Assembly: GCA_018656005.1 (NCBI GenBank)
Contig: JABHZW010000033.1
Location: 1-37,655 of the forward strand
Direction of reading: 5' to 3'
Origin: Candidatus Pseudelusimicrobium marinum
GTDB lineage: Bacteria; Elusimicrobiota; Elusimicrobia; Elusimicrobiales; Elusimicrobiaceae
DNA length: 37,655 bases
Shown: in pieces, positions 1,398 through 37,439 of the stretch
Position numbering within the stretch: the first letter of the stretch is position 1
Layout: each line of letters opens with the position of its first letter
Notes under the pieces: model-generated
What the model saw: the letters and a program-made list of their open reading frames with translations, nothing else
What the model was told of the DNA's origin: nothing
Databases searched by the model: none
Position numbers and translations under genes: made by a program

Positions 1398-2908
1398 TAT
1401 ATTACTCCTTCAAACTTGCCGTTTAATATGGCATTTTTAACTATTTCAATGTCGCCAGCTAGGCAAACATCTTTTGTTGTTTTTTTAACCAAACTTCTTA
1501 CTATATTGTAAGTTTTTAGGTTAAGTTTACCCGGTGTTAATGGTTTATGAAATTCAAGTCCTTGGGCTGATGCCATAAGTTCCACTGCTATTATTGTAGC
1601 TACATTTTCTATTACTTGTTGCAATTTTAATGCACCCCACATTCCCATACTCACAAAATCTTCCTTGTTTCCGCATGTTGGTATGCTGTCTGCTGAGGCT
1701 GGGTGTGCCAAGGTTTTATTTTCACTAGCTAAACCTGCTGTTAGATATTGCGAAATCATCCAACCGCTTTCTACACCTGGTTTATGTGCGAGCATACTTG
1801 GGAGTATGCCACCAGAATTGGATACTATTTGGAATACTCTTCGTTCGGAAATATTACCAAGTGTTGTTAAACTTGTGCAAGCAAAATCCCATGCAAGAGC
1901 AATTGCTTGTCCGTGGAAATTACCGCCAGAAATTATTTTGATTTTGTTGTTTTTGACCGAAATCAATGGATTATCTGTAGCACTGCCAAATTCTGTATTC
2001 AGAATTTGGCTTGTATATTTCAGAGTATCGTAAACCGCACCATGAACTTGGGGGATACATCTTAAACTATAACTATCTTGTACTCGAACATCACCGTTTT
2101 TATGCGAATTTCGTATTTTGCTGCCAGCCATTAGTTTTGTCAAAATTTTTGCAGTTTTTATTTGACCTTCATGTGGTTTTAAATTGTGTATTGCGATATC
2201 AAAAGGCGAATCTGAACTTTTCATTGCTTCTAAACTTAATCCTGCAGATAAGTTTGAAGCATTAAATACGAAATTCGCTTTTCTTAAACCTAAACCGCCC
2301 ACACTTTGCATTGCTTGAGTTCCGTTTATTAAGGATAGCCCTTCTTTTTCTTCAAGTTGTAACGGTTTTATTTTTAATTTTTTGAATAGCGATTTGGTGT
2401 CTTGCCATTTGGTGTCGCCAATTAATTTTGCTTTACCTTCGCCAATAAGTACTAGTCCGGCATGTGCAGAAGGCGCCAAATCGCCAGATGCTCCCACGCT
2501 TCCACGGGACGGAATATGCGGTACAACTTTTTTATTTAGAACTTCTATAATAGTTTGCACTACTTCTGGGCGAACGGCTGAATGTAGGTAACAAAGCTCG
2601 TTTGCTCTTAAAAATAATATACCTCGTGCCTGTTCGTCAGACAAAGGTTCGCCCGCACCACAAGCGTGGGATCGAATCAAATTAAATTGTAATGTTTTGC
2701 ATTCTTTTGATGGGACAACTGTTGAAGCTAAATCGCCAAAGCCGGTATTGATGCCGTAAACTGCACCTGCATTTTTTACATAATCTTTCATAAGCGAGCG
2801 ATATTTTTTTAAGCTCGCTTTTGTGGAAGCTGTCATTTGCACTTTTCTTGCTAATGCTGAAACTTCGTATAAATCTTTTAAATTTGGTTTTTTTCCTAAT
2901 GTAAACAT
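1397..2908 (-). CDS. hutH: Histidine ammonia-lyase
   Basis: Predicted to deaminate L-histidine to trans-urocanate plus ammonia, the first step of histidine degradation. The 503 residues match the family length. The Ala-Ser-Gly triplet that forms the MIO electrophile is visible in GSVGASGDLAPSAH near residue 140, the catalytic loop is VYGINTGFGDLAS near residue 50, and RSHACGAGEPL carries the Ser-His pair typical of histidine rather than tyrosine/phenylalanine lyases. The Shine-Dalgarno AAGGAG overlaps the end of the upstream exonuclease gene, and the stop codon overlaps the gpmI start. No hutU, hutI or hutG is seen in the window, so urocanate may be handled elsewhere or histidine used only as an ammonia source. 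Placement in an operon with a glycolytic mutase and an exonuclease is unusual. Confidence 0.93.
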   Translation of the reverse strand: MFTLGKKPNLKDLYEVSALARKVQMTASTKASLKKYRSLMKDYVKNAGAVYGINTGFGDLASTVVPSKECKTLQFNLIRSHACGAGEPLSDEQARGILFLRANELCYLHSAVRPEVVQTIIEVLNKKVVPHIPSRGSVGASGDLAPSAHAGLVLIGEGKAKLIGDTKWQDTKSLFKKLKIKPLQLEEKEGLSLINGTQAMQSVGGLGLRKANFVFNASNLSAGLSLEAMKSSDSPFDIAIHNLKPHEGQIKTAKILTKLMAGSKIRNSHKNGDVRVQDSYSLRCIPQVHGAVYDTLKYTSQILNTEFGSATDNPLISVKNNKIKIISGGNFHGQAIALAWDFACTSLTTLGNISERRVFQIVSNSGGILPSMLAHKPGVESGWMISQYLTAGLASENKTLAHPASADSIPTCGNKEDFVSMGMWGALKLQQVIENVATIIAVELMASAQGLEFHKPLTPGKLNLKTYNIVRSLVKKTTKDVCLAGDIEIVKNAILNGKFEGVI

Positions 2909-21743: not shown

Positions 21744-24700
21744 ATGAAAAAAAGAATAATCCTATTTCTAATAACATTCATTCTGGTTTTTCTAATTAAT
21801 ACAAATTCAAAAGCAGCAACATTTAATGTTGCTAATATTACTGAACTAAATACCGCAATAGCTACGATAAACGGAGCACCAGATTCGGACATAATAAACA
21901 TAACCGCCGATATTTTAACCGGTGGTACTGCAATAACAACATTATCTCAACCTGCAACAATAAATGCTGGTGGGAATACGATAGATGGGCAAGGTTTGGG
22001 AAGTCTTTTTAATTTGACTGGAACAAATACGGTAAATTTCTCAACAAATGTATTTATAAATAATGGTACAAGGGCTGCTGGTGGTGGAATCTATGCAAAT
22101 TCTGTCGCTGATATAACAGCATCTGGAACAATAAGTTTTTCAAGCAATACAGCAACAGCAGGAGCTGCTGGTGCTCTTCAGTTAACAGGTATAGGCGCAA
22201 CATTTACAGCAAGCGACGATGTAACATTTGTAGGAAATGATGCATCAGATTATGCTGGTGCTATTAATGGTAATGCTTCAGATATAAATTTTACAGGTGC
22301 AAATTCAACGGTACTTTTTGATCAGAATACAGCGGGAAGTTTCGGTGGTGCGATTAATTTGACATCTGCAACATTTGATACAGCAGGTACTACAACATTT
22401 TCTACAAACACAGCAACAAACAATGGTGGTGCGATTTTTATGAATGCTGGGTCAGACTTTGCTGCAACTGGTACTTTAAGTTTTTTAAATAACTCAGTAA
22501 CCACAGATGATGGTGGTGCCATTTATATGACTGGTTCAGGCACAACATTTACAGCATCAGAAGATGTTACATTTACAGGAAACGTAGCAGGAGTTGATGG
22601 TAATGATTCAGGTGGTGCTATTTATGCGCTAGATAGTTCCGATACAGATTTTACAGGAGCAAATGCCACAATTCTTTTTGATCAAAACACTGCTGGAGGT
22701 GATGGTGGTGCGGTTTATGTATCAAACTCAACATTAGATATAGCAGGAAGTACAACCTTTCATAACAACACAGCGGGATATGGTGGTGGTGCATTAAGAA
22801 TCGCTGATGGCGGGGATTTTACTATAACAAACACAGTAGTTTTCTCAAGCAATACAGCAACTACAACACACGGTGGTGCTGTTAATTTAGGGAATGCAGG
22901 TACAACATTCACGGCGAGTGGTGATGCCTCGTTTACAGGTAATACTTCAGGGAACGGAACAGGCGATTTCGGTGGTGCAGTTTATATGAGAGATGCTGCA
23001 ACAATGAATTTCACAGGGGCAAATTCAACCATTCTTTTTGATCAAAATTCAACTGCAGGTTATGGTGGTGCTGTGTATATGACAGATGCAAGTACAGCAT
23101 TCACAGCAGCCGGTAATGTTACATTTAGTAGCAACACAGCAGACAATACAGGTGCAGTTTATTTAACCACTAGTGCTGATATGAATTTTACTGGCGCAAA
23201 TTCAACCGTTCGTTTTGATAACAATACAAGTACAGATGATGGTGGTGCTGTTTCTATGAATACAGATTCAACTTTTGATACAGCAGCTACCACAATATTT
23301 GATGGTAATACAGCTGGAGGACACGGTGGTGGTCTTTATGTAATCAACGGGGCAGATTTTACAGCAACAAACGATATAACATTTTCAAGTAATACAGCAA
23401 CCATAGGAAACGGTGGTGCAATACTTTTAAATTCTTCTGGAACAACATTTACAGCATCTGCTAATGCTACTTTCCAAGGAAACCAATCAGGCGATGCAAC
23501 CAACGATTATGGTGGTGCAGTTTATTTAATTGGCAATAGCGCAATGAGTTTTACAGGAGCAAATTCAACCGTTCGTTTTGATGATAACTCAACCACAGGT
23601 TTAGGTGGTGCTATAACAATGACTGGAGCAACATTTGACACAGCAGCTACCACGGTATTTGATAGCAATACATCAGTAAGTCGTGCTGGCGCACTTTATA
23701 TATTTAACAGTGCGGATTTTACTTCAACAAAAGATATAACATTCTCAAACAATACGACAACAGCAGGAGATGGTGGTGCAATTTATATAGCAAATTCAGG
23801 ATCAACATTCGTTTCATCAGGAACTTCTACATTCACAAACAACTCAGCAGATGCAGGACTTGGTGGTGCTATATATATGGGAGCAGGTACATTTGTTAGT
23901 TTGGATGCGTCAACAAGCGATATTGTATTTTCAGGAAATACGGACTCTAGTGGTGCGAACGATATATATTTCGCAGGTACAGGAGAGTTACGATTATACG
24001 GAGCGAACGATATTTACTTTAATGGAGGATTAATTGGTGCGAACACAGGGAATGTAATAAACAAATTAGGTACAGGTACATTATATTTATCAGGTACCAA
24101 TAATGTTGTAGGAGGTACTCTAAATCAAGATGTTGGCACAATAGTTTTAACAAATACAGGAACATTATCAGTTGATACTTTTGTCACATTGGCATCCACA
24201 ACATTTGATGCTAATAATGGTGTAATAGATGATATAGCAGTGACAAACGGTTTTACTAATGTTGGTGATATAAACATAAACATAGATGCTGATGCAGGAA
24301 CAGCCGATAAAATAACTGTCGGAAATACAGGTTTTGTCGTTGGTGGTACGCTTGGAGTAGCAGTAGCAGGTGTAGTTACAGGGACAGAAACATTTGCTAT
24401 TTTAGAATCATCAACTTTAATAGGCACATTAGATGGTGTTAGTTTGTTAAGCGGTAGAGCCAGTTTGGCTCTAGATTATAGTACGGCAAACTGGATATAT
24501 TTAACAGCAACTGCATTAGCAACAAATTATTCTAGTATATCTGGTTTGAGTCATAATCAGTTGCAAGTGGCGAATGCTTTAGATACAGGAAGTTTGAATT
24601 CAACATTAGATTTAAATACCGTGCTGGATACAATTGATAATTTAAGCGATGCTGATAAAAAATTAGCATTCAATGATTTATCGGGAAGCATATATGCCAA

Positions 24701-25676
24701 TGCGATGACAGTTGCTACTTTAAATACAGGCAGAGATCATGTTTATGCGAAAATAGACGAAAGAGTTTTAACTTATAACAAGGAATGTTATGAATGTAAT
24801 AAGGGAGTAAAAAGTGTTTGGGGTCATATGTACGGAGCAAACAACAAATTTGATGCTGATGAAAATACTCCAGGAAATTTCAAAGCAGATAGTTTTGGTT
24901 TAGTAGCAGGTTGGGATATTTATCGACCAAGTAAAGATAAATTTATCGGTGTTATGTTAGGGTATGGCGAACATGAAGCAAAACAAGTAGCTGATAAAGT
25001 AGATATTGAAGAATTCACATTAGGAGCATATGGTGGATTATTCGGCGAAAAATGGGATTTCAAAGGTTTTGCAGGATTAGGAAGTCAAGACTACGAGGGA
25101 ACTAGAAATGTGGCATTTTTATCTAGGACAGCAAAAAGTGATTTTGACGGATATAGTCTTGCATTGGATTTGGAAGCCGGATATAAAAAAGCATTAAAAG
25201 AAGCCATAGAATTAAGACCATTTGTAGGGTTTGGTCTTGGTTATACAGCAATGGATGCATTTAATGAAACAGGAGCAGATAGTGTCAACTTACATGCAAA
25301 GAAAAGTGATTATTTAAGAACGGAGTTAAGATTTGGTGCGAATATCAACAATGGTAAATCAGAAAGGTTCGATTGGTACACAGAAGCAATGATAAAAGCA
25401 TTACCATCAGGAGATACAGGCGAATATAAAGCAACTTTTGAAGATGTGGAAACAAGCACTATGACGATAAGAGGTTCGGATCAAGGAAAAGCTTTATTAG
25501 CATTAGGTTTGGGTGGCGAATATGATGTAGGCAAAAACTGGAGTTTGTACACAAACTTGAGAGCACAAAATTCTGGCGATGTTGAAGGTTATTACGGAAA
25601 TTTAGGTGTAACATATAAATTCTGTGGTGGCGGAAATAAATGTAAGCAAAAAAAGGAAGAACCAAAAAAATCATAA
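21744..25676 (+). CDS. Autotransporter adhesin with Pmp-like repeat passenger
   Basis: 1310 residues. A signal peptide at 1-28 (MKKRIILFLITFILVFLINT then SKAA) is followed by a passenger rich in Gly/Thr/Asn with GGA[IV] and F(S/T)xN motifs, about 24 residues per beta-helix rung, resembling chlamydial polymorphic membrane proteins. A threonine/glycine-rich stalk runs over about 740-940, then a C-terminal outer-membrane beta-barrel at about 1020-1300 (VWGHMYGANNKF ... VTYKFCGGG) with alternating strands. The barrel is followed by a basic tail KCKQKKEEPKKS, which is unusual because barrels normally end in an aromatic residue. Cysteines occur only near the barrel (CYEC before it, CGGGNKC after it). 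It probably displays the helix on the cell surface for adhesion. It is flanked on both sides by the 41-bp terminator repeat. Confidence 0.92.
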   Translation: MKKRIILFLITFILVFLINTNSKAATFNVANITELNTAIATINGAPDSDIINITADILTGGTAITTLSQPATINAGGNTIDGQGLGSLFNLTGTNTVNFSTNVFINNGTRAAGGGIYANSVADITASGTISFSSNTATAGAAGALQLTGIGATFTASDDVTFVGNDASDYAGAINGNASDINFTGANSTVLFDQNTAGSFGGAINLTSATFDTAGTTTFSTNTATNNGGAIFMNAGSDFAATGTLSFLNNSVTTDDGGAIYMTGSGTTFTASEDVTFTGNVAGVDGNDSGGAIYALDSSDTDFTGANATILFDQNTAGGDGGAVYVSNSTLDIAGSTTFHNNTAGYGGGALRIADGGDFTITNTVVFSSNTATTTHGGAVNLGNAGTTFTASGDASFTGNTSGNGTGDFGGAVYMRDAATMNFTGANSTILFDQNSTAGYGGAVYMTDASTAFTAAGNVTFSSNTADNTGAVYLTTSADMNFTGANSTVRFDNNTSTDDGGAVSMNTDSTFDTAATTIFDGNTAGGHGGGLYVINGADFTATNDITFSSNTATIGNGGAILLNSSGTTFTASANATFQGNQSGDATNDYGGAVYLIGNSAMSFTGANSTVRFDDNSTTGLGGAITMTGATFDTAATTVFDSNTSVSRAGALYIFNSADFTSTKDITFSNNTTTAGDGGAIYIANSGSTFVSSGTSTFTNNSADAGLGGAIYMGAGTFVSLDASTSDIVFSGNTDSSGANDIYFAGTGELRLYGANDIYFNGGLIGANTGNVINKLGTGTLYLSGTNNVVGGTLNQDVGTIVLTNTGTLSVDTFVTLASTTFDANNGVIDDIAVTNGFTNVGDININIDADAGTADKITVGNTGFVVGGTLGVAVAGVVTGTETFAILESSTLIGTLDGVSLLSGRASLALDYSTANWIYLTATALATNYSSISGLSHNQLQVANALDTGSLNSTLDLNTVLDTIDNLSDADKKLAFNDLSGSIYANAMTVATLNTGRDHVYAKIDERVLTYNKECYECNKGVKSVWGHMYGANNKFDADENTPGNFKADSFGLVAGWDIYRPSKDKFIGVMLGYGEHEAKQVADKVDIEEFTLGAYGGLFGEKWDFKGFAGLGSQDYEGTRNVAFLSRTAKSDFDGYSLALDLEAGYKKALKEAIELRPFVGFGLGYTAMDAFNETGADSVNLHAKKSDYLRTELRFGANINNGKSERFDWYTEAMIKALPSGDTGEYKATFEDVETSTMTIRGSDQGKALLALGLGGEYDVGKNWSLYTNLRAQNSGDVEGYYGNLGVTYKFCGGGNKCKQKKEEPKKS
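22290..23912 (+). repeat. 360-bp tandem super-repeat in the passenger domain
   Basis: The segment coding FTGANST(V/I)xFD(Q/N)N begins at 22290, 22650, 23010, 23187 and 23550: intervals of 360, 360, 177 and 363 bp. Each full unit holds five beta-helix rungs; the 177-bp unit has lost about half, in frame. Confidence 0.8.
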
Positions 25677-26807: not shown

Positions 26808-27668
26808 CTAATCGACTATTTTTTCAACTTGGATATCTTTAATGTTAAAGGTTATGGTTCCTTCTTTTTTAGGACTTATTTTCTTTTTATTTGTATCTCC
26901 AAGCATTGTATACTGTTCTTTTTTAGGAGGAGTAGGTAATGGGTTTAAGAGATCTGTGATTTGTATATTCTTAAATCCATTGGATGCTAAAACTTCTTTT
27001 AAATGTGTAATAGGATCCTTGTTTTTAGGTATTTTATGTTCCATTTGATTTAAATAGAAATTGTTATCGTCAATAAATCCTATAAATTGGTGATTAGAGG
27101 GGTGTTCACATGTAAAAGCATATTTAAAATACATGGAATGAACAATATCTTTAAATGATGTTGTGAATGTTTGTATGATTTTCTTAGTTCTTTTTTTTAT
27201 GGTAAATTTTTTATCTACAATAAACTTATTTTTATTTGTATGTAGTATAAAATAAAAGGTTTTTTTTATCATCATAAGATAAGCAATATCAACGCTTTTT
27301 CCATCTACAAGATATGCGGAGGTTGGGGGTATGTTTAAAGTTCTAGCTTTGCCTGATTTTAAATGTACAATATCAGTGTTTAAATTTAATGTTAAGATAT
27401 AGTTTGTTTTATCGTTACATACCACCAAATCTATTCTTTCTACATTTAAGTCTTTCTTTTTATTGTTAGTTATTACTAACTTGGAAATACATCCCCCGGG
27501 GTTGAAAATATCTCTGGTTGATGTAGGATTAATATGTATTTTTAGAAAAAAGCGGTCGTACAGATACATTATTACTTTATAAGAGATCCAGCCTACGAAA
27601 GGCACCAAAAACAAACCTGATAATACCTTATATTTCCCTAAAAAAATCTCAATATTATCCAACATCAT
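26808..27668 (-). CDS. Single-TM protein of unknown function, last gene of the restriction operon
   Basis: 286 residues. One or two hydrophobic helices near residues 14-38 (VLSGLFLVPFVGWISYKVIMYL), then a beta-rich soluble region (CISKLVITNNKKKDLNVERIDLVVC ... TLNLNTDIV) that looks like an immunoglobulin-type sandwich, followed by mixed sequence up to about 225 and a Lys/Pro-rich linker to a short C-terminal strand. Its ATG overlaps the upstream methyltransferase stop (ATGA), so it is translationally coupled to the modification genes. I know no standard restriction-modification subunit of this build; it may be a membrane-bound accessory factor. No catalytic motif seen. Confidence 0.65.
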   Translation of the reverse strand: MMLDNIEIFLGKYKVLSGLFLVPFVGWISYKVIMYLYDRFFLKIHINPTSTRDIFNPGGCISKLVITNNKKKDLNVERIDLVVCNDKTNYILTLNLNTDIVHLKSGKARTLNIPPTSAYLVDGKSVDIAYLMMIKKTFYFILHTNKNKFIVDKKFTIKKRTKKIIQTFTTSFKDIVHSMYFKYAFTCEHPSNHQFIGFIDDNNFYLNQMEHKIPKNKDPITHLKEVLASNGFKNIQITDLLNPLPTPPKKEQYTMLGDTNKKKISPKKEGTITFNIKDIQVEKIVD

Positions 27669-28738
27669 ATTTTATATCCTGTTTTTTTGAAGATATATAA
27701 TTGTTCTTTGATTTGTTTTTTTGTTTTAGATAAGCCATTGCTGTTGCTTTTAAATCGAGTGTAATCAAACTCAACCAACTCCACATTTCCATATTTGTTA
27801 AACAAGTTTAAAATTTTATCTTGCTCCATGATGCCCTCATTATTATAACTCAAAACCAAATATTTATATTTTACCTGTTTAATAACTTTTTCTAGTTCTT
27901 TTATTGCTAATTCCTTATTACAAAAATTAGATTTTTGTGTTTTATAATCCCTCATACCTGTTATACCCTTAATATCGGGATTATCATATTTTGCAATAGT
28001 TTCTAGTAAGTGATAATTAGGAGCATATTGTCTCTCATTATACGGAGGATCCAAATATAAAATATCTACATCTATATTATCTATGAGGTTTATACTATTT
28101 TCATTAAATGAAAGATTGTTTTTATTGTTAGAAATTATTTGTATTGTTCTTAATCTAAAATCCTTTAATGCTCTTGGATCCCATTTTTTTCTAAAAGCAG
28201 CATATACTCCAGATATGTTTGCATAAAAAGGGACACTTTCTATTAAACATGCTAGAAGTATAAAATATTCATTTTCATTTATGTCTTTTTCTTTATACCA
28301 TTCTTCTATTTTTGTTCTAATAGAGTCTATTTTCTGAGCATTTTTATCTGAAAAATACATTCTTGGAATTTCTAAGGATTTACTGCCTAAAGGAGAGTAG
28401 TTTTTATAAATAAAACCATCTATGAGAGGTAAATTATTTAAATAACCAATTACTATATCTAATGGTTCCTCAAATAAACGGTCAGAATTAATGTTTATTT
28501 TAGATAATAAGTTTTTGAATTTAGGTTCTTCATTATTTACTATATATGCTTTTTGTAAACAATACGAAAAATATAATAAATCAGACGATATTATTTTGTA
28601 ATTTAATTTTTTGAAGAATCTAGCTACATTTGTTGTTCCAGAGAAAAAATCACAAAAAGAGTTCCCTGATATGTGTCTTTCCTTTAAGACATCATATATA
28701 GCATGGATTAGATTTTCCTTGTTCCCTATAAATCTCAT
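27665..28738 (-). CDS. DNA adenine-N6 methyltransferase, D12 (alpha) class, second modification gene
   Basis: 357 residues. Transfers a methyl group from S-adenosylmethionine to adenine N6. The N-terminal FIGNKENLIHAI corresponds to motif X, FCDFFSGTTNVARFF is the SAM-binding motif I, and DILYLDPPYNERQYAPNYH the catalytic DPPY motif IV. The target-recognition insert lies between about residues 60 and 210. It overlaps the first methyltransferase gene by 47 bases in another frame. Two different alpha-class adenine methyltransferases in one system are typical of restriction systems with an asymmetric (type IIS-like) target, each modifying one strand. Confidence 0.9.
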   Translation of the reverse strand: MRFIGNKENLIHAIYDVLKERHISGNSFCDFFSGTTNVARFFKKLNYKIISSDLLYFSYCLQKAYIVNNEEPKFKNLLSKININSDRLFEEPLDIVIGYLNNLPLIDGFIYKNYSPLGSKSLEIPRMYFSDKNAQKIDSIRTKIEEWYKEKDINENEYFILLACLIESVPFYANISGVYAAFRKKWDPRALKDFRLRTIQIISNNKNNLSFNENSINLIDNIDVDILYLDPPYNERQYAPNYHLLETIAKYDNPDIKGITGMRDYKTQKSNFCNKELAIKELEKVIKQVKYKYLVLSYNNEGIMEQDKILNLFNKYGNVELVEFDYTRFKSNSNGLSKTKKQIKEQLYIFKKTGYKI

Positions 28739-29669
28739 GTGTGTTTTCCTGTGTCATATCAAATAGAGTTAGTTCTTTCTCTATCTTTGGTTTATAATTA
28801 GTTATTAGAACTTCAACTGTCTTGTCGGTATCATTAAAAGAAGTTTGATAGTTTGAGTTAGAATAGTTTTTAGCTATATAGTTGATTACATAATTATTTT
28901 TATTTAACCAATCTTTTAAAATATTATTAATTTTTCCTTTATGTTCCAAAACATTAGATAATGCAAATTTAATTTTCTTTTTGTTTAAATTATCTAGTAA
29001 ATCAAGTAGTTTTTTCTCTTCTTTAAGACCCCAACCTTTAAAACCTCTTTTTCCGTCGTTATATGTTCCTGTGGTTATTAAGTATGGTGGATCGCAATAA
29101 ACAAAATCATTGGAATCAAATTTATCAAATTTTATTTCGTCGAAGGAATTATTAAATATTTCAACATTTGATTCCTGTATTTTTTTAACAAATTTTTCCA
29201 ATTTTTTTTCTATTGATATATTAAAACTGCTTCTGTTTTTACCGAAAGGATTGTTAAATTCATGACTATTATTGAATCTTATTTGATGATTAAAGGAGTA
29301 TGATGTTAAAACGAACAAATCTAACGGGTTTTTATTATTGTTATAAAGTTGTCTTAGTTTTTTATAACCATCATCATTAGTCTTGGATAAATTATATGTG
29401 TTTATTCTAGAGTTTACATGTTCTATTACACTGGAATATGATTTTTTCTGAAACTCTTTATATAAATCAGTTAGATATGTTAAGTTATCGTTTAAAATAA
29501 CTTTTTTTGCCTTTGTGTTTAGTCCTACATTACAGCCACCTGCAAACAGGTCAATAAAAGTACCAATATTCTCTGGAAACAGAGGAAGTATTTGCTTTAA
29601 TATCTTTTGCTTACCTCCTATGTAATTTAGAGGTGAGCTAATAAAGTTATGTTTTTCATTTATTTTCAT
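28692..29669 (-). CDS. DNA adenine-N6 methyltransferase, D12 (alpha/Dam-like) class, first modification gene
   Basis: 325 residues from the ATG at 29669 (a TTG at 29681 is in frame, but GGGGAAAG is placed correctly for the ATG). Seen: SSPLNYIGGKQKILKQIL (motif X), GTFIDLFAGGCNVGLN (motif I, SAM binding) and FVYCDPPYLITTG (motif IV), the layout of Dam and EcoRV-type methylases. Its ATG overlaps the restriction gene stop (ATGA), so methylase synthesis depends on ribosomes finishing the nuclease gene. It differs from the second methyltransferase in the recognition region (about residues 65-165), consistent with two half-sites or two strands. Confidence 0.92.
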   Translation of the reverse strand: MKINEKHNFISSPLNYIGGKQKILKQILPLFPENIGTFIDLFAGGCNVGLNTKAKKVILNDNLTYLTDLYKEFQKKSYSSVIEHVNSRINTYNLSKTNDDGYKKLRQLYNNNKNPLDLFVLTSYSFNHQIRFNNSHEFNNPFGKNRSSFNISIEKKLEKFVKKIQESNVEIFNNSFDEIKFDKFDSNDFVYCDPPYLITTGTYNDGKRGFKGWGLKEEKKLLDLLDNLNKKKIKFALSNVLEHKGKINNILKDWLNKNNYVINYIAKNYSNSNYQTSFNDTDKTVEVLITNYKPKIEKELTLFDMTQENTHEIYREQGKSNPCYI

Positions 29670-31054
29670 TTCTTTCCCCAAAAATCTATCAAATTTTTAA
29701 TGGCTTCTTTAAAAATATCCGGAGCCTTAACTCCAAGAACTAGTTTACCATTTTCATTTAATAAAAATCCTACTTCTATTTCTATAATTTTTTCTGTTGT
29801 GCTTCCATACAAAATAACAGTTCTCTTTATCTTAAATTTTGGATAATGTTTTTTTATGTAGTTTTTTTCAATATAGTTATAGTTTTTAAGCTCTTGTATC
29901 CCATTAGCTCTAAACTGATATTTTTTGCCCTCTATGTTTATTATCTCACTTCTATCAAAGTCTATCAATATAAGATCTGGGATATGTACAATTTTACTCT
30001 TATCTCCTGCTTTGTATTTTTCTCTATCAGAGTATTTTTGAAGAGGAATATGCTCTCCCTTTGCGGTTAGAAAATAACCTTTTTCACAACCGGCATGGTT
30101 TTCAAAAATAGATTCACCTTTTGTAAAATTATCTACAACTATATGTATAAAAATAGTCCCTAATTTTTCACCATCTTTGTCATATTTCCAATACAATTTA
30201 TTTTCTTTAGATTTTGGAACTTTTAGTCCATCAATATTAATTCCTAAATCATTAGCTATTGATATAAATTTATTCCCTGGGGTCAAATGTTTTTGCTTTA
30301 ATCCGTGGTGAGTTATGGTAATATTTCTATTCCAACCTAGCTTTCTTAATACTGCAGAAATAATACTTAATGCTCCTATGTTTGGATCGTAAGATAGGCC
30401 ATTAGATTTAAAAAGTCTTCCTGATACTGTTATTCTCAAACATTTTTTATTTATTAAAATGGGAACGTTGGTTTTATTAGGTTTTTTCATTTCAGACTTT
30501 ACTTTAATAAGTTCTTCCACTGATGTAAAAGGTTTAAAAATATTCTTATCTAGCTTCTTGCCTAATATTTCAACACCTAATGTTAAAAGTAATCTAGTTC
30601 CAAAAATGGATGTTTTAGTGGGTTTTTCTTTTTGCTCTACTTGTAGATTATAGAGCATTATTTTCTTAACATTAGGATAATATTTCTCAATTAATACAAA
30701 TTTTGAACATCGTTGATAAACTCCTGTGTTTCGACTTTCTTTATCGTCTGTTTTTGTTTCTTCGATAATATATAAAGGAGTGTCTTTTTGTGTAGGTTCT
30801 TTTTCTTGATGAAAAACTAAAAAATCAACGAAACTAGAGTATCCACTAACAATTTTTATATAGATTTTATCTACTATATTACAGCGAAATCCAATTACTT
30901 CATAAGTGAAGTTGAATTCACCATTTTTGAGTATTGGAAGTATCTGTAATTTACTGCCAAAAGCCCCTATTTTCTTATCTTTTGCAAATTCAGATAACAT
31001 AGTTTCTAAAACTTTCTTTTTGGGTCTTTCTTCAGTTAAAATCCATAAATTCAT
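29666..31054 (-). CDS. Putative type II restriction endonuclease, PD-(D/E)XK fold
   Basis: 462 residues from the ATG at 31054, chosen over a GTG at 31063 because AAGG lies 9 bases upstream of the ATG. I assign it by context and by one motif: SSFVDFLVFHQ (Asp77), 21 residues, then LYIIEETKTDD (Glu99-Thr-Lys101), fitting the PD-(D/E)XK nuclease core, followed by helix NTGVYQRCSKFVLI. The remaining 350 residues would hold target recognition; a second basic/aromatic region (NIEGKKYQFRANGIQELKNYNYIEK) is also seen. It leads an overlapping operon with two adenine methyltransferases. Known type IIS systems such as FokI and MboII have matching double modification. Specificity cannot be read from the sequence. 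Confidence 0.72.
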   Translation of the reverse strand: MNLWILTEERPKKKVLETMLSEFAKDKKIGAFGSKLQILPILKNGEFNFTYEVIGFRCNIVDKIYIKIVSGYSSFVDFLVFHQEKEPTQKDTPLYIIEETKTDDKESRNTGVYQRCSKFVLIEKYYPNVKKIMLYNLQVEQKEKPTKTSIFGTRLLLTLGVEILGKKLDKNIFKPFTSVEELIKVKSEMKKPNKTNVPILINKKCLRITVSGRLFKSNGLSYDPNIGALSIISAVLRKLGWNRNITITHHGLKQKHLTPGNKFISIANDLGINIDGLKVPKSKENKLYWKYDKDGEKLGTIFIHIVVDNFTKGESIFENHAGCEKGYFLTAKGEHIPLQKYSDREKYKAGDKSKIVHIPDLILIDFDRSEIINIEGKKYQFRANGIQELKNYNYIEKNYIKKHYPKFKIKRTVILYGSTTEKIIEIEVGFLLNENGKLVLGVKAPDIFKEAIKNLIDFWGKK

Positions 31055-31086
31055 TATATTCACCCTTATTTTATGTTTATTATAAA

Positions 31087-31118: not shown

Positions 31119-31934
31119 CTAATTTCTATTATATCCAAAGTCTCGGGATAAGAGGGCTTTTTTCCAATAGTTTTCTCGATCTATTATGATTTTGTTATCA
31201 GTTTTTATCGAACGATATTCTAGAAGAGTGAATTTAAAATTTTCTTTGGCATAATTTTGATTTTGCTGTTTTATCAATTCTTTTAATCCCTCGTTCCAAC
31301 CATGTCCGGTTTCTATATAGCATCGCCATCTATCCCAAAGGTTGCCGTCGTTTTTATAAGCAGAACCCACATATTTCTTACCAGTTTTTGTGTCAGCAAT
31401 TAAATAAATACCTTTTACACTTTTAAGTGCAGCTTTCCAGTCTTTTTTCTGAGTTTTTATGATATTCTCAAGCTCTGTAAATTGTAAATCTATGTTTTCA
31501 AAACCTGGAAAACTTCGTCCACTATATTTTTCTTTTAAAACTTCGTGAACCACAATGTTGTCGTAAATGTTTTCTAAATTTAGTCTTTTATTTTGAGTTT
31601 TGGAAGAAAATTCTACTTTTAGTCGACCTATTAGACTTTTTCCGATATTTAATAATTTTATTTTATAGAGATGTGCTTTTTTGGGATCTCTACCTAAAAC
31701 TTCATAAATTCCACCGAATAACCAAACATCTTTTTCATGGTAAAATCTCATAAATGAAATAATATATTTTCTGTTGAAACAATTCCTTTTACCTCGCCAA
31801 GCATTCCAATGATCCCACTTGTTTTTATCCTGTGCAAAAACATCTAATGGTTCATCGTGTCCATTATAAACAGCTAAATGTATTTTGTAATCCTTCAAGT
31901 TTTTTATTGATAGTACTTCTGATAGTTTTATCAT
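31119..31934 (-). CDS. GIY-YIG family nuclease with N-terminal accessory domain
   Basis: 271 residues. The C-terminal half is a GIY-YIG endonuclease: KGIYLIADTKTGKKYVGSAY (the GIY and YVG tyrosines), the conserved Arg in NLWDRWRCYI, and the catalytic Glu in DRENYWKKALLS. The N-terminal 150 residues (PLDVFAQDKNKWDHWNAWRGKR ... VWLFGGIYEVLGR) form a domain shared with other stand-alone bacterial GIY-YIG proteins, probably for DNA or modified-base recognition. AAAGGGG before the ATG is a good ribosome site. It is transcribed toward the restriction operon 64 bases downstream and has a 235-nt leader with a terminator/antiterminator fold. It may be a second nuclease of the defence operon or a homing-type enzyme. 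Confidence 0.85.
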   Translation of the reverse strand: MIKLSEVLSIKNLKDYKIHLAVYNGHDEPLDVFAQDKNKWDHWNAWRGKRNCFNRKYIISFMRFYHEKDVWLFGGIYEVLGRDPKKAHLYKIKLLNIGKSLIGRLKVEFSSKTQNKRLNLENIYDNIVVHEVLKEKYSGRSFPGFENIDLQFTELENIIKTQKKDWKAALKSVKGIYLIADTKTGKKYVGSAYKNDGNLWDRWRCYIETGHGWNEGLKELIKQQNQNYAKENFKFTLLEYRSIKTDNKIIIDRENYWKKALLSRDFGYNRN

Positions 31935-31970
31935 CTTTTACCCCTTTGCACCGCCCCCCGATTTAAACAT

Positions 31971-32077
31971 AAAAAAGGGACGATGACATAATGAGGATCT
32001 CGAAACTCCCAAAATGTACATCGCCCCGCCGTACTAAAAAGCACGGCAAAGTAGGCGACGATTTTGGCTTCGAGATC
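31971..32077 (-). promoter_or_regulatory. Terminator/antiterminator switch in the GIY-YIG leader RNA
   Basis: On the minus-strand transcript: P1 GATCTCGAA (32077-32069) with TTCGAGATC (32004-31996), P2 GTCGCC (32059-32054) with GGCGAT (32025-32020), P3 GCCGTGC/GTACGGC (32047-32028). Alternatively GGGGCGATGTACAT (32027-32014) pairs with ATGTCATCGTCCC (31989-31977), with one bulge and one G-U, followed by six T (31976-31971): an intrinsic terminator. P2 and the terminator use the same bases, so only one can form. A further hairpin GTTATTC/GAATAAC lies upstream at 32105-32123. Confidence 0.65.
31988..32006. repeat. 19-bp dispersed repeat, copy 1
   Basis: ATAATGAGGATCTCGAAAC, identical to 37405-37423. 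On the minus strand it is the terminator loop and P1 3' arm of the GIY-YIG leader. Confidence 0.85.
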
Positions 32078-32151
32078 GTTTTACCAGTTGCCTAGCAAAA
32101 CAGCGTTATTCCGTTAGAATAACTCCAAAAATCAGTCTAAATTTTAAACTC

Positions 32152-32217
32152 TTGACCCATATGGATCACATAGACATTATATAACATTCTTCGCAGGTAA
32201 AGTCTAATTTGTATAAT
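32152..32217. promoter_or_regulatory. Overlapping divergent promoters for the GIY-YIG gene and the 32225 gene
   Basis: The hexamer at 32176-32181 reads TATAAT on the minus strand, starting the GIY-YIG leader near 32169. On the plus strand TTGACC (32152-32157) sits 18 bp from the same bases read as ATTATA. A second plus-strand TATAAT (32212-32217) is 7 bases from the ATG at 32225, a leaderless arrangement. Sharing one -10 region would make the two directions compete. Confidence 0.5.
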
Positions 32218-32224
32218 GATGTTT

Positions 32225-32977
32225 ATGGAGATAAAATTTGTAGCAGAAAACATTAGTTTTGATAAAAAAGGCAAATCGTCAAGATATGCCGAATTTGTTT
32301 CTACATGGAAAGGAATACAAGAATATAAGAAAAATGGTTTTTCTGTGCCTGATAAGAAGACATATGAGTTATATCAAGCGTTAAAGCTTAATGATGATTT
32401 TACTACAGAAGTTGAAAGGTTTAGAAAAAAACATTCTATCCCAGATAATGTTAATTATAATGAGTTTCTTAAAATTATAAATCCAAAAAACAGAAAAAGA
32501 ACTAATGCTATGGCAAAAGGCTTATCGAATATTGAACATAAGTATAGTATGCACAGATTAGTGCAGATGAATTTAGATTGTTTGTTTATAGGTGGATTTG
32601 TATTAGTAAATCAAATACCGAATATTTCAATAAGAGTTTTTAGGAAAAAAGATGAAACATATGAACCTTTCTGGTGGAATAGATTGCAAGATAGAAGTAT
32701 AAATATACAAATAGCATCATCTACGGTTAATGAAAACCAAATAATAGAGTTTCTTAAAGAAAATAAAAAAGAATTAAAAAAACAAATTAAAAAAATAGAA
32801 AAAATAGAATTTCCAAACATAAATGCAAGAGACTTGAGTTTTATTAAAGAGAAAAAAAGAAAAACATATTATAATATGGCGAATGATAATAAGGTTTTAG
32901 ATGAGTCTGGTATTAGAATGGCTTATTTAAGAGCCAAAAGAAAAATAAATAATTTGTTCAAAAAAAATAATCTTTAA
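32225..32977 (+). CDS. Unknown basic phage-region protein
   Basis: 250 residues from the ATG at 32225; two earlier in-frame ATGs (32216, 32219) overlap the -10 box. Mixed alpha/beta, strongly basic, with Lys/Arg-rich stretches (NPKNRKRTNAMAKG, KKELKKQIKKIEKIEF, KEKKRKTYYNM, RAKRKINNLFKK) consistent with nucleic-acid binding. No motif that I recognise. First gene of the plus-strand packaging region and divergent from the GIY-YIG gene, so it could be an early regulator or a replication protein. Followed by 85 bases with the AAGGAG of the next gene. Confidence 0.65.
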   Translation: MEIKFVAENISFDKKGKSSRYAEFVSTWKGIQEYKKNGFSVPDKKTYELYQALKLNDDFTTEVERFRKKHSIPDNVNYNEFLKIINPKNRKRTNAMAKGLSNIEHKYSMHRLVQMNLDCLFIGGFVLVNQIPNISIRVFRKKDETYEPFWWNRLQDRSINIQIASSTVNENQIIEFLKENKKELKKQIKKIEKIEFPNINARDLSFIKEKKRKTYYNMANDNKVLDESGIRMAYLRAKRKINNLFKKNNL

Positions 32978-34848: not shown

Positions 34849-36247
34849 TGAGATATCTCCAAACGCAACATATCTTGATAACTGGCATATAGACATAATT
34901 TGTTATGAATTAAAACAAATTATAGAAGGTAAAAATAATCGAGCGATTATAAATATTCCACCAAGGTATATGAAGTCTATAATCTGCTCGGTTGCACTAC
35001 CTGCTTTTATTTTGGGACATAACCCAAAGGCAACTATAATTGCTGTCAGTTATAGTGATGATTTGGCTGAAAAGTTCGCATTAGATTGTAGAAAAATTAT
35101 TGAAAGCAATTGGTATCAAGAAATTTTTCCTGCAACAAAATTATCTAAAAAAAGAAAAAGTGTTTCCGATTTTGAAACCACTAAAAATGGTGGGAGGTAT
35201 TCAACTTCTGTGCAAGGAACTTTGACTGGTCGTGGTGCAGATTACATAATTATTGATGATCCAATAAAACCAATAGACGCAAATTCTGATACCATTAGGG
35301 CTAAAACTAATAATTGGTATGGTTCTACTTTATATTCGAGATTAAATGATAAGAAAAATGGGAAAATTATCGTCATTATGCAACGACTTCATGAAAATGA
35401 TTTTACGGGATATTTGCTTAACACAGATGACAGTTTTAAGCTTATAAAAATACAGGGTATTGCTGAAAAAAATGAAGTTTGGAATATGAAAGATTATTTT
35501 GGAAATATTAAAATAATTACGAGAGAGAAAGGTGTGGCATTGCATCCTCAAAGAGATGGTATTAATAAACTTTTAGAAGCCAAGAAAACTATGGGAGAAC
35601 TAGTTTTTGCAGGGCAATATCAACAAAGCCCAAGACCACTTGAAGGTGGAGTTATAAAAAGAAGGTGGCTTAATTTTTACAATCCCAAAGAACTTTTTGA
35701 ACAGATAAAAAATGGAGATATTGTTATAAAAAATATTATTCAATCTTGGGACACAGCAAATAAAATAGAAGAACACAACGACTATTCCGTTTGCATAACC
35801 ATGCTAGTTGATAGTGATGATAAAAGATATGTTGTTGGTTGCTATCGTGAAAAGTTAGAGTTTCCTTTTTTGGAACAAAAAATAAGAGATAAATATGAAT
35901 ACATAAAAGAAAAGTATCAAAAACCTGTAGAGATTTTAATAGAAGATAGGGCATCTGGAACACAACTTATTCAAACTTTGCAAAGAAAGTTGAATATTAT
36001 CGCAATAAAACCAGAGCATGATAAAAAAACCAGATTAATAACAGCATCTGCTTCAATAGAGACTGGAAAAGTTATGTTTCCTAATGATAATCCGCCTTGG
36101 TATTTAGATATGGAAAAAGAACTATTAATATTTCCTAACGGAAAGCATGATGATATTTGCGATGCATTAAGCCAAGCATTAATGCACGAAAAACAATATG
36201 CAGATATTAGTTTTAATGTAACACCTATTAAAAAAGAGTGGTATTAA
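34778..36247 (+). CDS. terL: Phage terminase large subunit (ATPase/nuclease)
   Basis: A 489-residue packaging motor. ATPase part: NIPPRYMKSIICSV is a degenerate Walker A (PPR-x-x-KS), YIIIDDPIKP is Walker B, with VIMQRLHENDFTG as the coupling motif region. Nuclease part (RNase H fold): IIQSWDTANK (first Asp), ILIEDRASGTQL (second acidic cluster) and NGKHDDICDALSQAL (third Asp). GGAGGAG before the ATG. The stop shares bases with the stop of the opposing nuclease gene (4-base tail-to-tail overlap), so that gene has been fitted in with no spare sequence. A portal gene would be expected next but is not there. Confidence 0.95.
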   Translation: MNEKEVLKSVLRSDLKSFTRKVFNEISPNATYLDNWHIDIICYELKQIIEGKNNRAIINIPPRYMKSIICSVALPAFILGHNPKATIIAVSYSDDLAEKFALDCRKIIESNWYQEIFPATKLSKKRKSVSDFETTKNGGRYSTSVQGTLTGRGADYIIIDDPIKPIDANSDTIRAKTNNWYGSTLYSRLNDKKNGKIIVIMQRLHENDFTGYLLNTDDSFKLIKIQGIAEKNEVWNMKDYFGNIKIITREKGVALHPQRDGINKLLEAKKTMGELVFAGQYQQSPRPLEGGVIKRRWLNFYNPKELFEQIKNGDIVIKNIIQSWDTANKIEEHNDYSVCITMLVDSDDKRYVVGCYREKLEFPFLEQKIRDKYEYIKEKYQKPVEILIEDRASGTQLIQTLQRKLNIIAIKPEHDKKTRLITASASIETGKVMFPNDNPPWYLDMEKELLIFPNGKHDDICDALSQALMHEKQYADISFNVTPIKKEWY

Positions 36248-37311
36248 AAACTTTCTGGAACAAGTTTTAAGGAATTAATAGAAATATTAACTTTTTCTAA
36301 GTTATCATATACTTCTAATACGTCTTCATAATCCCAATATTTAATTTTGGATAATCCAGGTAGACCTGTTGCCTCTTTTTTGATTTTCTCTATTTGTTCT
36401 TTATTTGAAACAGCTACTATTCCTTGTACAGCTGGGTTATTAGTCGCTTTTAAAAGGTTCATACACAAACTATCTATGCTGCCTTTTGTTTGTACTTCAA
36501 ATACATATATTACTCTACCCATGTTTCCTATTTCAGATTGCCAGATAGTATCCACAACTGAGCCTGTTGCAACTTTTTTTTCTGTTTGCACTTCAAATCC
36601 TAGCCATTTTCCTATGTCTGCAAGTTTATCTCTTACTTCGTTATGAATAAATTCTTTATTGTCAGATTTTATATCTTCTTCAATGGTGTCTTTTTTTATA
36701 GTTGTTTTTGTAAGATTGTCCTCAACCTGTAATTCATTATAAAAGAAAAAATCAACATCCAAAAGTGAGGTGTGTTCAATATCAAAATCCTTCATGGATT
36801 TAGATATTTTATGACCAATATCACATAAATATTTATACTTTTTACCCGTAACTTGATAATTATAAATAGGTAAATCTTTTACTTCTAGATATGCTAAAGA
36901 AGCTAATGCTCGTCTATTCCATATTAAATACTTATCTGGACAATGTCTACAAAGAATTTCACTAATCATTGCTGGACCAAGCCCTTTTATGTTTTTTCTA
37001 AAATTATCCCACCTTGTGACAATATCATCTTTATCAAAAATTAGTTTTGATAGATGGTTTTTTAAATTTTCAAACCCATTATCACTGATTAGCTTATCAA
37101 CATAATATTGTTTGTTACCCCAAATAAGCATAGCCCATAAACTTGAAATATACTCAAAAATATCATCTTCAGAAAAATTCTTTATGTTCTCTGAAGTGTA
37201 CTTTCCATAAGTCATTGCTATTTTTTCTCTATCTTCTTGATCTTGTTTTAGTGTAATCAAAGAAGTTTTTTTATGTTTTTTTAAATGTTTGTTTAGTAGT
37301 TCTATATTCAT
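36244..37311 (-). CDS. Unknown protein: HhH glycosylase-like domain plus PD-(D/E)XQ nuclease domain
   Basis: 355 residues. Residues about 105-145 (NIKGLGPAMISEILCRHCPDKYLIWNRRALASL) resemble the helix-hairpin-helix of base-excision glycosylases, where G-x-G-P contacts DNA and the following D/NRR lies near the active site. The C-terminal part from about 225 to 330 (FIHNEVRDKLADIGKWLGFEVQTEKKV, then VVDTIW ... YVFEVQTKGSIDSL) fits a PD-(D/E)XK-fold nuclease with Asp254, Glu272 and Gln274, the Glu-x-Gln variant known from BglII and BstYI. Encoded against the packaging genes directly after terL, with its own ribosome site AAGGGGA. Position and orientation are those of a phage cargo (moron) gene; a defence or anti-competitor nuclease is my inference. 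Confidence 0.65.
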   Translation of the reverse strand: MNIELLNKHLKKHKKTSLITLKQDQEDREKIAMTYGKYTSENIKNFSEDDIFEYISSLWAMLIWGNKQYYVDKLISDNGFENLKNHLSKLIFDKDDIVTRWDNFRKNIKGLGPAMISEILCRHCPDKYLIWNRRALASLAYLEVKDLPIYNYQVTGKKYKYLCDIGHKISKSMKDFDIEHTSLLDVDFFFYNELQVEDNLTKTTIKKDTIEEDIKSDNKEFIHNEVRDKLADIGKWLGFEVQTEKKVATGSVVDTIWQSEIGNMGRVIYVFEVQTKGSIDSLCMNLLKATNNPAVQGIVAVSNKEQIEKIKKEATGLPGLSKIKYWDYEDVLEVYDNLEKVNISINSLKLVPESF

Positions 37312-37404: not shown

Positions 37405-37423
37405 ATAATGAGGATCTCGAAAC
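37405..37423. repeat. 19-bp dispersed repeat, copy 2
   Basis: ATAATGAGGATCTCGAAAC, identical to 31988-32006, located 17 bases upstream of the ATG at 37440 and 4 bases before its AAAGGAG ribosome site. Confidence 0.85.
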
Positions 37424-37439
37424 ACTCAAAGGAGCAGAA

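Follow-up and report, generated by a model that had tools for sequence, protein, structure and literature searches.

In a 37,655-nucleotide stretch of DNA from Candidatus Pseudelusimicrobium marinum (the window), a minus-strand gene for a putative GIY-YIG nuclease is preceded by a leader that can be folded in two ways. This raises the question whether the leader is a transcription attenuator, and whether such an RNA serves the nuclease in particular or a wider set of genes. In our judgement, minus-strand 32137-31971 very probably belongs to a family of transcription attenuators that act in cis and are conserved in Elusimicrobiota, built as a leader with two folds.

Genes and RNA elements of the window

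The genes downstream of the leader were annotated by profile matches as follows.

31119..31934, minus strand: GIY-YIG nuclease; PADLOC UzuA (PDLC03973) E = 8.8e-57 over the whole protein, PHROG 26160 E = 1.3e-43, Pfam GIY-YIG just under the cut-off
29666..31063, minus strand: type II restriction enzyme in the same operon; PADLOC REase_II E = 1.4e-65
28692..29681, minus strand: D12-class adenine methyltransferase; Pfam E = 4e-39, PADLOC MTase_II
27665..28738, minus strand: second D12-class adenine methyltransferase; Pfam E = 8.8e-37, PADLOC MTase_II

By its predicted protein sequence the nuclease matches the UzuA model of the Uzume defence system, the mechanism of which has been described as poorly understood (PMC10740426). 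Two plus-strand genes of the window were also noted. One, at 21744-25676, encodes 1310 aa; its product contains repeated segments and looks like an autotransporter in its C-terminal part. The other, at 32216-32977, encodes an uncharacterised protein of a kind also represented by clusters cl11, cl15 and cl30, about 250-285 aa in length and with no Pfam match. Such proteins are usually encoded directly before a ParB/methyltransferase gene, and the clusters may form one family.

The elements of the leader are listed in the order of the RNA, after its full extent.

31971..32137, minus strand: whole conserved putative attenuator RNA (family core); match of covariance model R1
32173..32181, minus strand: candidate promoter -10 (TATAATGTC) upstream of the RNA, from the sequence
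32153..32169, minus strand: small 5' hairpin GTGATCCATATGGGTCA; minimum-free-energy (MFE) fold, outside the conserved family core
32125..32137, minus strand: strand 1 (GACTGATTTTTGG), partner of strand 2 in the terminator state
32105..32123, minus strand: hairpin P1, 7 bp and a 5-nt loop; covariation in 7/7 pairs
32078..32101, minus strand: hairpin P2; MFE fold and family helices 3 and 4
32068..32077, minus strand: P3a 5' strand (GATCTCGAAG); P3a covariation
32054..32067, minus strand: strand 2 (CCAAAATCGTCGCC), pairing with strand 1 or with strand 3
32028..32047, minus strand: apical hairpin P4; MFE fold and family covariation
32006..32027, minus strand: strand 3 (GGGGCGATGTACATTTTGGGAG), partner of strand 2 (antiterminator) or strand 4 (terminator); includes 32014-32027
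31996..32005, minus strand: P3a 3' strand (TTTCGAGATC); covariation
31977..31995, minus strand: strand 4 (CTCATTATGTCATCGTCCC), 3' half of the terminator; family helices 7-9
31971..31976, minus strand: T-run of the terminator, six T, from the sequence

No -35 partner for the candidate -10 was scored on the minus strand in a simple scan. Directly 5' of strand 1 lies an AT-rich tail, GTTTAAAATTTA, which resembles the tail in other copies of the RNA. From the T-run to the start codon of the GIY-YIG gene the distance is 36 nt. Elsewhere in the window, at 37405-37430 on the minus strand, a 26-nt piece comprises the end of strand 3, the P3a 3' strand and the start of strand 4. The minus-strand gene 36244-37311 begins about 95 nt further on, and the piece seems, from its sequence, to be what is left of another copy of the element.

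Two mutually exclusive folds

The original prediction had described two exclusive folds of the leader, and its minus-strand coordinates were found to be as given when the sequence was checked: 32014-32027 reads GGGGCGATGTACAT, 32020-32025 reads GGCGAT, and the six T end at 31971. The exclusivity of the folds was confirmed as well, with practically equal computed energies of -63.2 kcal/mol for the terminator fold and -63.4 kcal/mol for the antiterminator fold of the window copy. In a shuffle test the leader reached z = -7.95, and none of 200 shuffles folded as well. The simple two-way competition that had been proposed did not stand: the pairing of strand 1 (32125-32137) with strand 2 (32054-32067) had been overlooked, and the RNA is predicted to be a four-strand switch.

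Every copy inspected has the same plan, running from strand 1 through P1, P2, the P3a 5' strand, strand 2, P4, strand 3, the P3a 3' strand and strand 4 to the T-run. The terminator state consists of 1:2 and 3:4, and the other state of P3a and 2:3 as one long hairpin; strand 1 resembles strand 3 in sequence. When the growing window transcript was followed by minimum-energy folding of prefixes (which is not kinetics), 1:2 was predicted to form first and 2:3 with P3a thereafter, before strand 4 had appeared. Averaged over the family, the terminator fold was 5.7 kcal/mol more stable than the antiterminator fold, so that read-through would need help.

A family of related RNAs in Elusimicrobiota

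When 199 relatives were searched at the nucleotide level, a single homologue came up, in a genome of the same family as the window (G002), where it lies in the same prophage neighbourhood but not before a GIY-YIG gene. By way of the ParB/methyltransferase gene that adjoins the window element, 26 prophage loci were gathered, and eleven further copies, one of them partial, were recognised in these. Covariance model R1 was built from five prophage copies without the window copy. In the collected loci it matched 31974-32137 of the window full length (E = 3.1e-8). Another eight divergent copies, one of them truncated, were matched in the same loci, and R1 also led to distant copies outside prophages; the four copies of group B were reached at E = 5e-4 to 2e-3 only. 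That a model made from five relatives finds the window copy over its full length excludes that the window element arose by chance.

Model R2 was in turn built from five distant copies found with R1. In the order it gave matches in 64 of 149 genomes at E <= 0.01, with a maximum of 17 per genome, and among 341 Elusimicrobiota genomes it matched 72 at E <= 1e-4. Of these, 60 belong to the family of the window and 12 to family f21, which might, as a guess, be Endomicrobiaceae; none were found elsewhere. The divergent window copy lies beyond the reach of R2, and R1, run against the whole genome of the window, found just that one copy (E = 7.7e-8); all of these counts are therefore lower bounds. A weak match in G149 was rejected as a chance stretch, and L083, which is antisense to a long ORF, was judged to be chance and left out of the alignments.

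Scans of Rfam agreed with the original prediction that the leader belongs to no known riboswitch or T-box class. The search that had been proposed was run at gathering score and at permissive E-values and gave no family; the only hit, SAM-VI, was a chance one, with a score of 16 bits where 57.5 would be required (E = 2). Phage and plasmid collections contained nothing meaningful by nucleotide similarity. Pattern scans of viral contigs gave matches, none of which was the RNA, and 472 kb had no model match at E <= 0.1; these scans double as a specificity control. A pattern scan of genome contigs returned only the known Elusimicrobiales copy and coding coincidences. In the literature searched no published report of the motif was found, and the RNA family, which is absent from Rfam, is apparently undescribed.

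Covariation and strand pairing

Covariation was determined on 100 distinct sequences. In the alignment, which was fitted to the terminator fold, 92.8% of the cells of the terminator state were paired and compensatory changes were seen in 52 of 54 pairs, with a covariation score of 0.562 as compared to 0.204 when shuffled and at most 0.122 when slid. All 13 pairs of helix 1 (1:2) had compensatory changes (92.8% of cells paired), as had all seven pairs of P1 (97.9% paired), and in 3:4 (family helices 7-9) 90-97% of the cells were paired; P2 and P4 covaried as well. P3a, which was absent from the search model and the columns of which had been picked beforehand as the best-pairing ones, had 93.0% of cells paired, compensation in 8 of 8 pairs and a score of 0.849 against 0.174 in shuffles. 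Because P3a was not in the model to which the alignment was fitted, its count is a cleaner test of covariation than that of the terminator state.

Strands of one copy paired better with each other than with those of other copies: the own-versus-cross pairing preference was 0.88 for 1:2, 0.94 for 3:4, 0.98 for P3a and 0.96 for P1, with control combinations at 0.48-0.56. Pairing of 2:3 had an energy of -14.3 kcal/mol, compared with -7.0 kcal/mol when strand 2 was shuffled; its own-versus-cross preference was weaker (0.63 overall, 0.74 among ten divergent lineages) because both strands are conserved in sequence. Sequence conservation was found mainly in the switching strands. The 2:3 complementarity and P3a together provide a conserved alternative antiterminator pairing that excludes the terminator, and the 3:4 helix, the T-run and the distance to the gene place an intrinsic terminator in the 5' leader of the gene to be controlled. 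Covariation among homologues, the absence of which had been named as grounds for refuting the original prediction, is present in the terminator state, in P3a and in the own-versus-cross comparison. With the fold energies and the gene distance it supports the terminator/antiterminator logic and the leader position that had been put forward. In the alignment, the loop of P1 is very often five nt long and of the GNRAG type, and it is possible that this loop is a protein-recognition site.

The extremely strong covariation of P3a could also be explained by one pseudoknotted structure, with 1:2 and 3:4 present together and P3a as a loop-loop helix between them, perhaps as an element of processive antitermination to which a protein or RNA polymerase would bind. 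As the two strands of P3a are found in the loops of 1:2 and 3:4, all three helices are topologically compatible, and the frequent GNRAG-like five-nt loop of P1 also speaks for this structure. We nevertheless find it unlikely, as it leaves unexplained the strong 2:3 complementarity and the likeness between strands 1 and 3, the two folds are in exact balance in the window copy, and 8-10 pairs in a loop of about 10 nt would be sterically doubtful.

Position of the RNA relative to genes

A gene on the same strand was found within 300 nt in 127 of 132 leaders. The start codon chosen for it follows the T-run at a median distance of 46 nt, and in 73 of the 127 at 60 nt or less. A start within 100 nt together with a ribosome-binding site was present in 92 leaders, as compared to 5 on the divergent side. 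Since the starts follow the T-run by this median distance, most copies of the RNA are cis leaders. In group C, which consists of prophage copies, 100-114 nt separate the T-run from the start codon, and the conserved palindrome and promoter-like sequence between them mean that those genes could have their own promoter. A palindrome like CGACAAACGTTTGTCG with a promoter-like sequence was seen between the T-run and the cargo gene in L054, L055, L060, L061, L063 and L073, with related forms in L005, L065 and group B. A gene for a WYL-domain regulator (cluster cl5) lies on the opposite strand close to the led cargo in many prophages of this kind (L054, L055, L060, L061, L063); it also adjoins cargo in group B. 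In L168 two copies of the RNA stand in tandem (2309-2495 and 2544-2729, minus strand) before one 449-aa gene, arranged as tandem riboswitches are.

With a likely -10 close upstream, a compact structure of 160 nt and a T-run at its end, the RNA might instead be a stand-alone small RNA that acts in trans and has its own terminator, the gene being transcribed from a separate promoter. The palindrome and promoter-like sequence 3' of the T-run in group C would suit this, and cross-pairing in trans is thinkable given the strand sequences that copies have in common. What makes it quite unlikely is that the mostly about 20-60 nt from the T-run to a start codon with ribosome-binding site are too short for a promoter and a leader, that the orientation of the genes is strongly biased (92 vs 5), and that a plain small RNA needs no conserved 2:3 alternative.

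Genes led by the RNA

Control of a defence nuclease in particular, as first proposed, proved too narrow, as the same RNA stands before many unrelated genes, most often those of type IV pilins. Out of 100 R2 copies, about 55 stand before genes whose products begin, as judged by motif, like type IV pilins, and one of these was confirmed by Pfam N_methyl. Other led genes encode glycosyltransferases of families 8 and 61, a UbiA prenyltransferase, a sulfatase, zinc-ribbon proteins and lipoproteins, and one is likely an L31 gene. GIY-YIG proteins are led in the window and in L054. A PDDEXK_4 protein in L056 matches the PADLOC candidate PDC-S26 and has homologues in L057-L059; a type III methyltransferase is led in L188, a methyltransferase with an HSDR_N-like N-terminus in L193, and EcoRI-type methyltransferases in L194 and L195. 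By predicted function, defence and restriction genes are one recurrent class of targets (window, L054, L056-L059, L188, L193-L195). In chromosomes and prophages, most of the led genes belong to the envelope (type IV pilins, glycosyltransferases, lipoproteins), and DNA-modifying and defence genes come in addition. L054 and L055 have nearly the same RNA and leader, followed by different genes. The RNA of L056 (13427-13589) is identical to that of L057 (4150-4312), in different genera (G051, g6; G010, g3) and with downstream proteins that differ at their N-termini, and this identity points to a recent transfer of the prophage region.

Such changes of cargo after nearly identical elements (L054/L055, L056/L057), and the 26-nt fragment at 37405-37430 before another minus-strand gene, would also be expected of a mobile or recombination element, in which a hairpin-forming DNA site serves cargo exchange and the RNA features are incidental. 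Compensatory changes in nine helices, and a 3' T-run followed by a ribosome-binding site and start codon, render this highly improbable. An ordinary terminator or a chance fold is refuted by covariation, in the terminator state and in P3a, and with the shuffle z-score and the R1 match against it as well its probability is negligible.

Proposed mechanism and meaning

As an attenuator, the RNA would work as follows. In the terminator state strand 1 would pair with strand 2, enclosing P1 and P2, and strand 3 with strand 4; with the T-run following, RNA polymerase would stop before the gene. In the read-through state P3a and 2:3 would form one long hairpin that leaves strand 4 single-stranded, and the polymerase would enter the gene. 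From these predicted folds we infer a functional terminator, a change between the folds inside the cell, and a signal of some kind that favours one over the other. Upstream of strand 1 we see hardly any space for a leader peptide. A stalled ribosome is therefore a less likely trigger than a protein, a small RNA or a small molecule. More tentatively, and with some doubt on our side, the family might be a new class of signal-responsive RNA switch by which the two families of Elusimicrobiota coordinate their pili and envelope sugars, as structures of the cell surface, with the modification of DNA and defence against phages, and where prophages plug their cargo into a circuit of the host and the signal is a new ligand or RNA-binding protein.

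One conserved RNA switch before outward-facing genes (pilins, glycosyltransferases, lipoproteins, restriction and defence) would offer a concrete and testable way into the gene regulation of Elusimicrobiota, for which molecular genetics hardly exists. The window would be an instance of a prophage defence cassette under a leader attenuator that is common to host genes, and the signal, if found, could bring to light a riboswitch class or an RNA-binding regulator that is new.

Comparison with known systems

Riboswitches with a terminator platform have in common with the family a conserved leader, an alternative terminator, many copies per genome, tandem copies and pilin targets; no known riboswitch class matched in Rfam at curated score. 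In other organisms c-di-GMP riboswitches control pilin genes. A c-di-GMP trigger was not supported here, as GGDEF domains were missing from two carriers with 6 and 7 copies of the RNA (G304 and G305, the latter genome only 63% complete). The put and EAR elements and the RfaH/LoaP type of antitermination likewise involve leader elements before surface-structure genes and phage operons, whereas the present family carries a built-in bistable terminator. Control of the RfaH/LoaP type found no support, since in 25 genomes there was never more than one NusG and hence no paralogue. The lack of GGDEF in the two carriers and a NusG count that never exceeds one weaken c-di-GMP and RfaH/LoaP as triggers. 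T-box leaders are also terminator/antiterminator leaders, but the family has no Rfam T-box match and its targets are not amino-acid genes.

In the leaders of 12 prophage copies and 40 others, inspected by eye, -10-like sites were seen close upstream of strand 1 and no obvious peptide, and from this reading a leader peptide of the trp type was judged unlikely. Attenuators of the trp/his type share with the family the four strands, the 1:2 and 3:4 terminator against the 2:3 antiterminator, and the place in a gene leader. In contrast to these, no leader peptide was seen in the leaders inspected and strand 1 lies near the likely 5' end of the RNA; the family has P1, P2 and P4 in addition, as well as a separate covarying P3a, and the genes under its predicted control are unrelated to each other.
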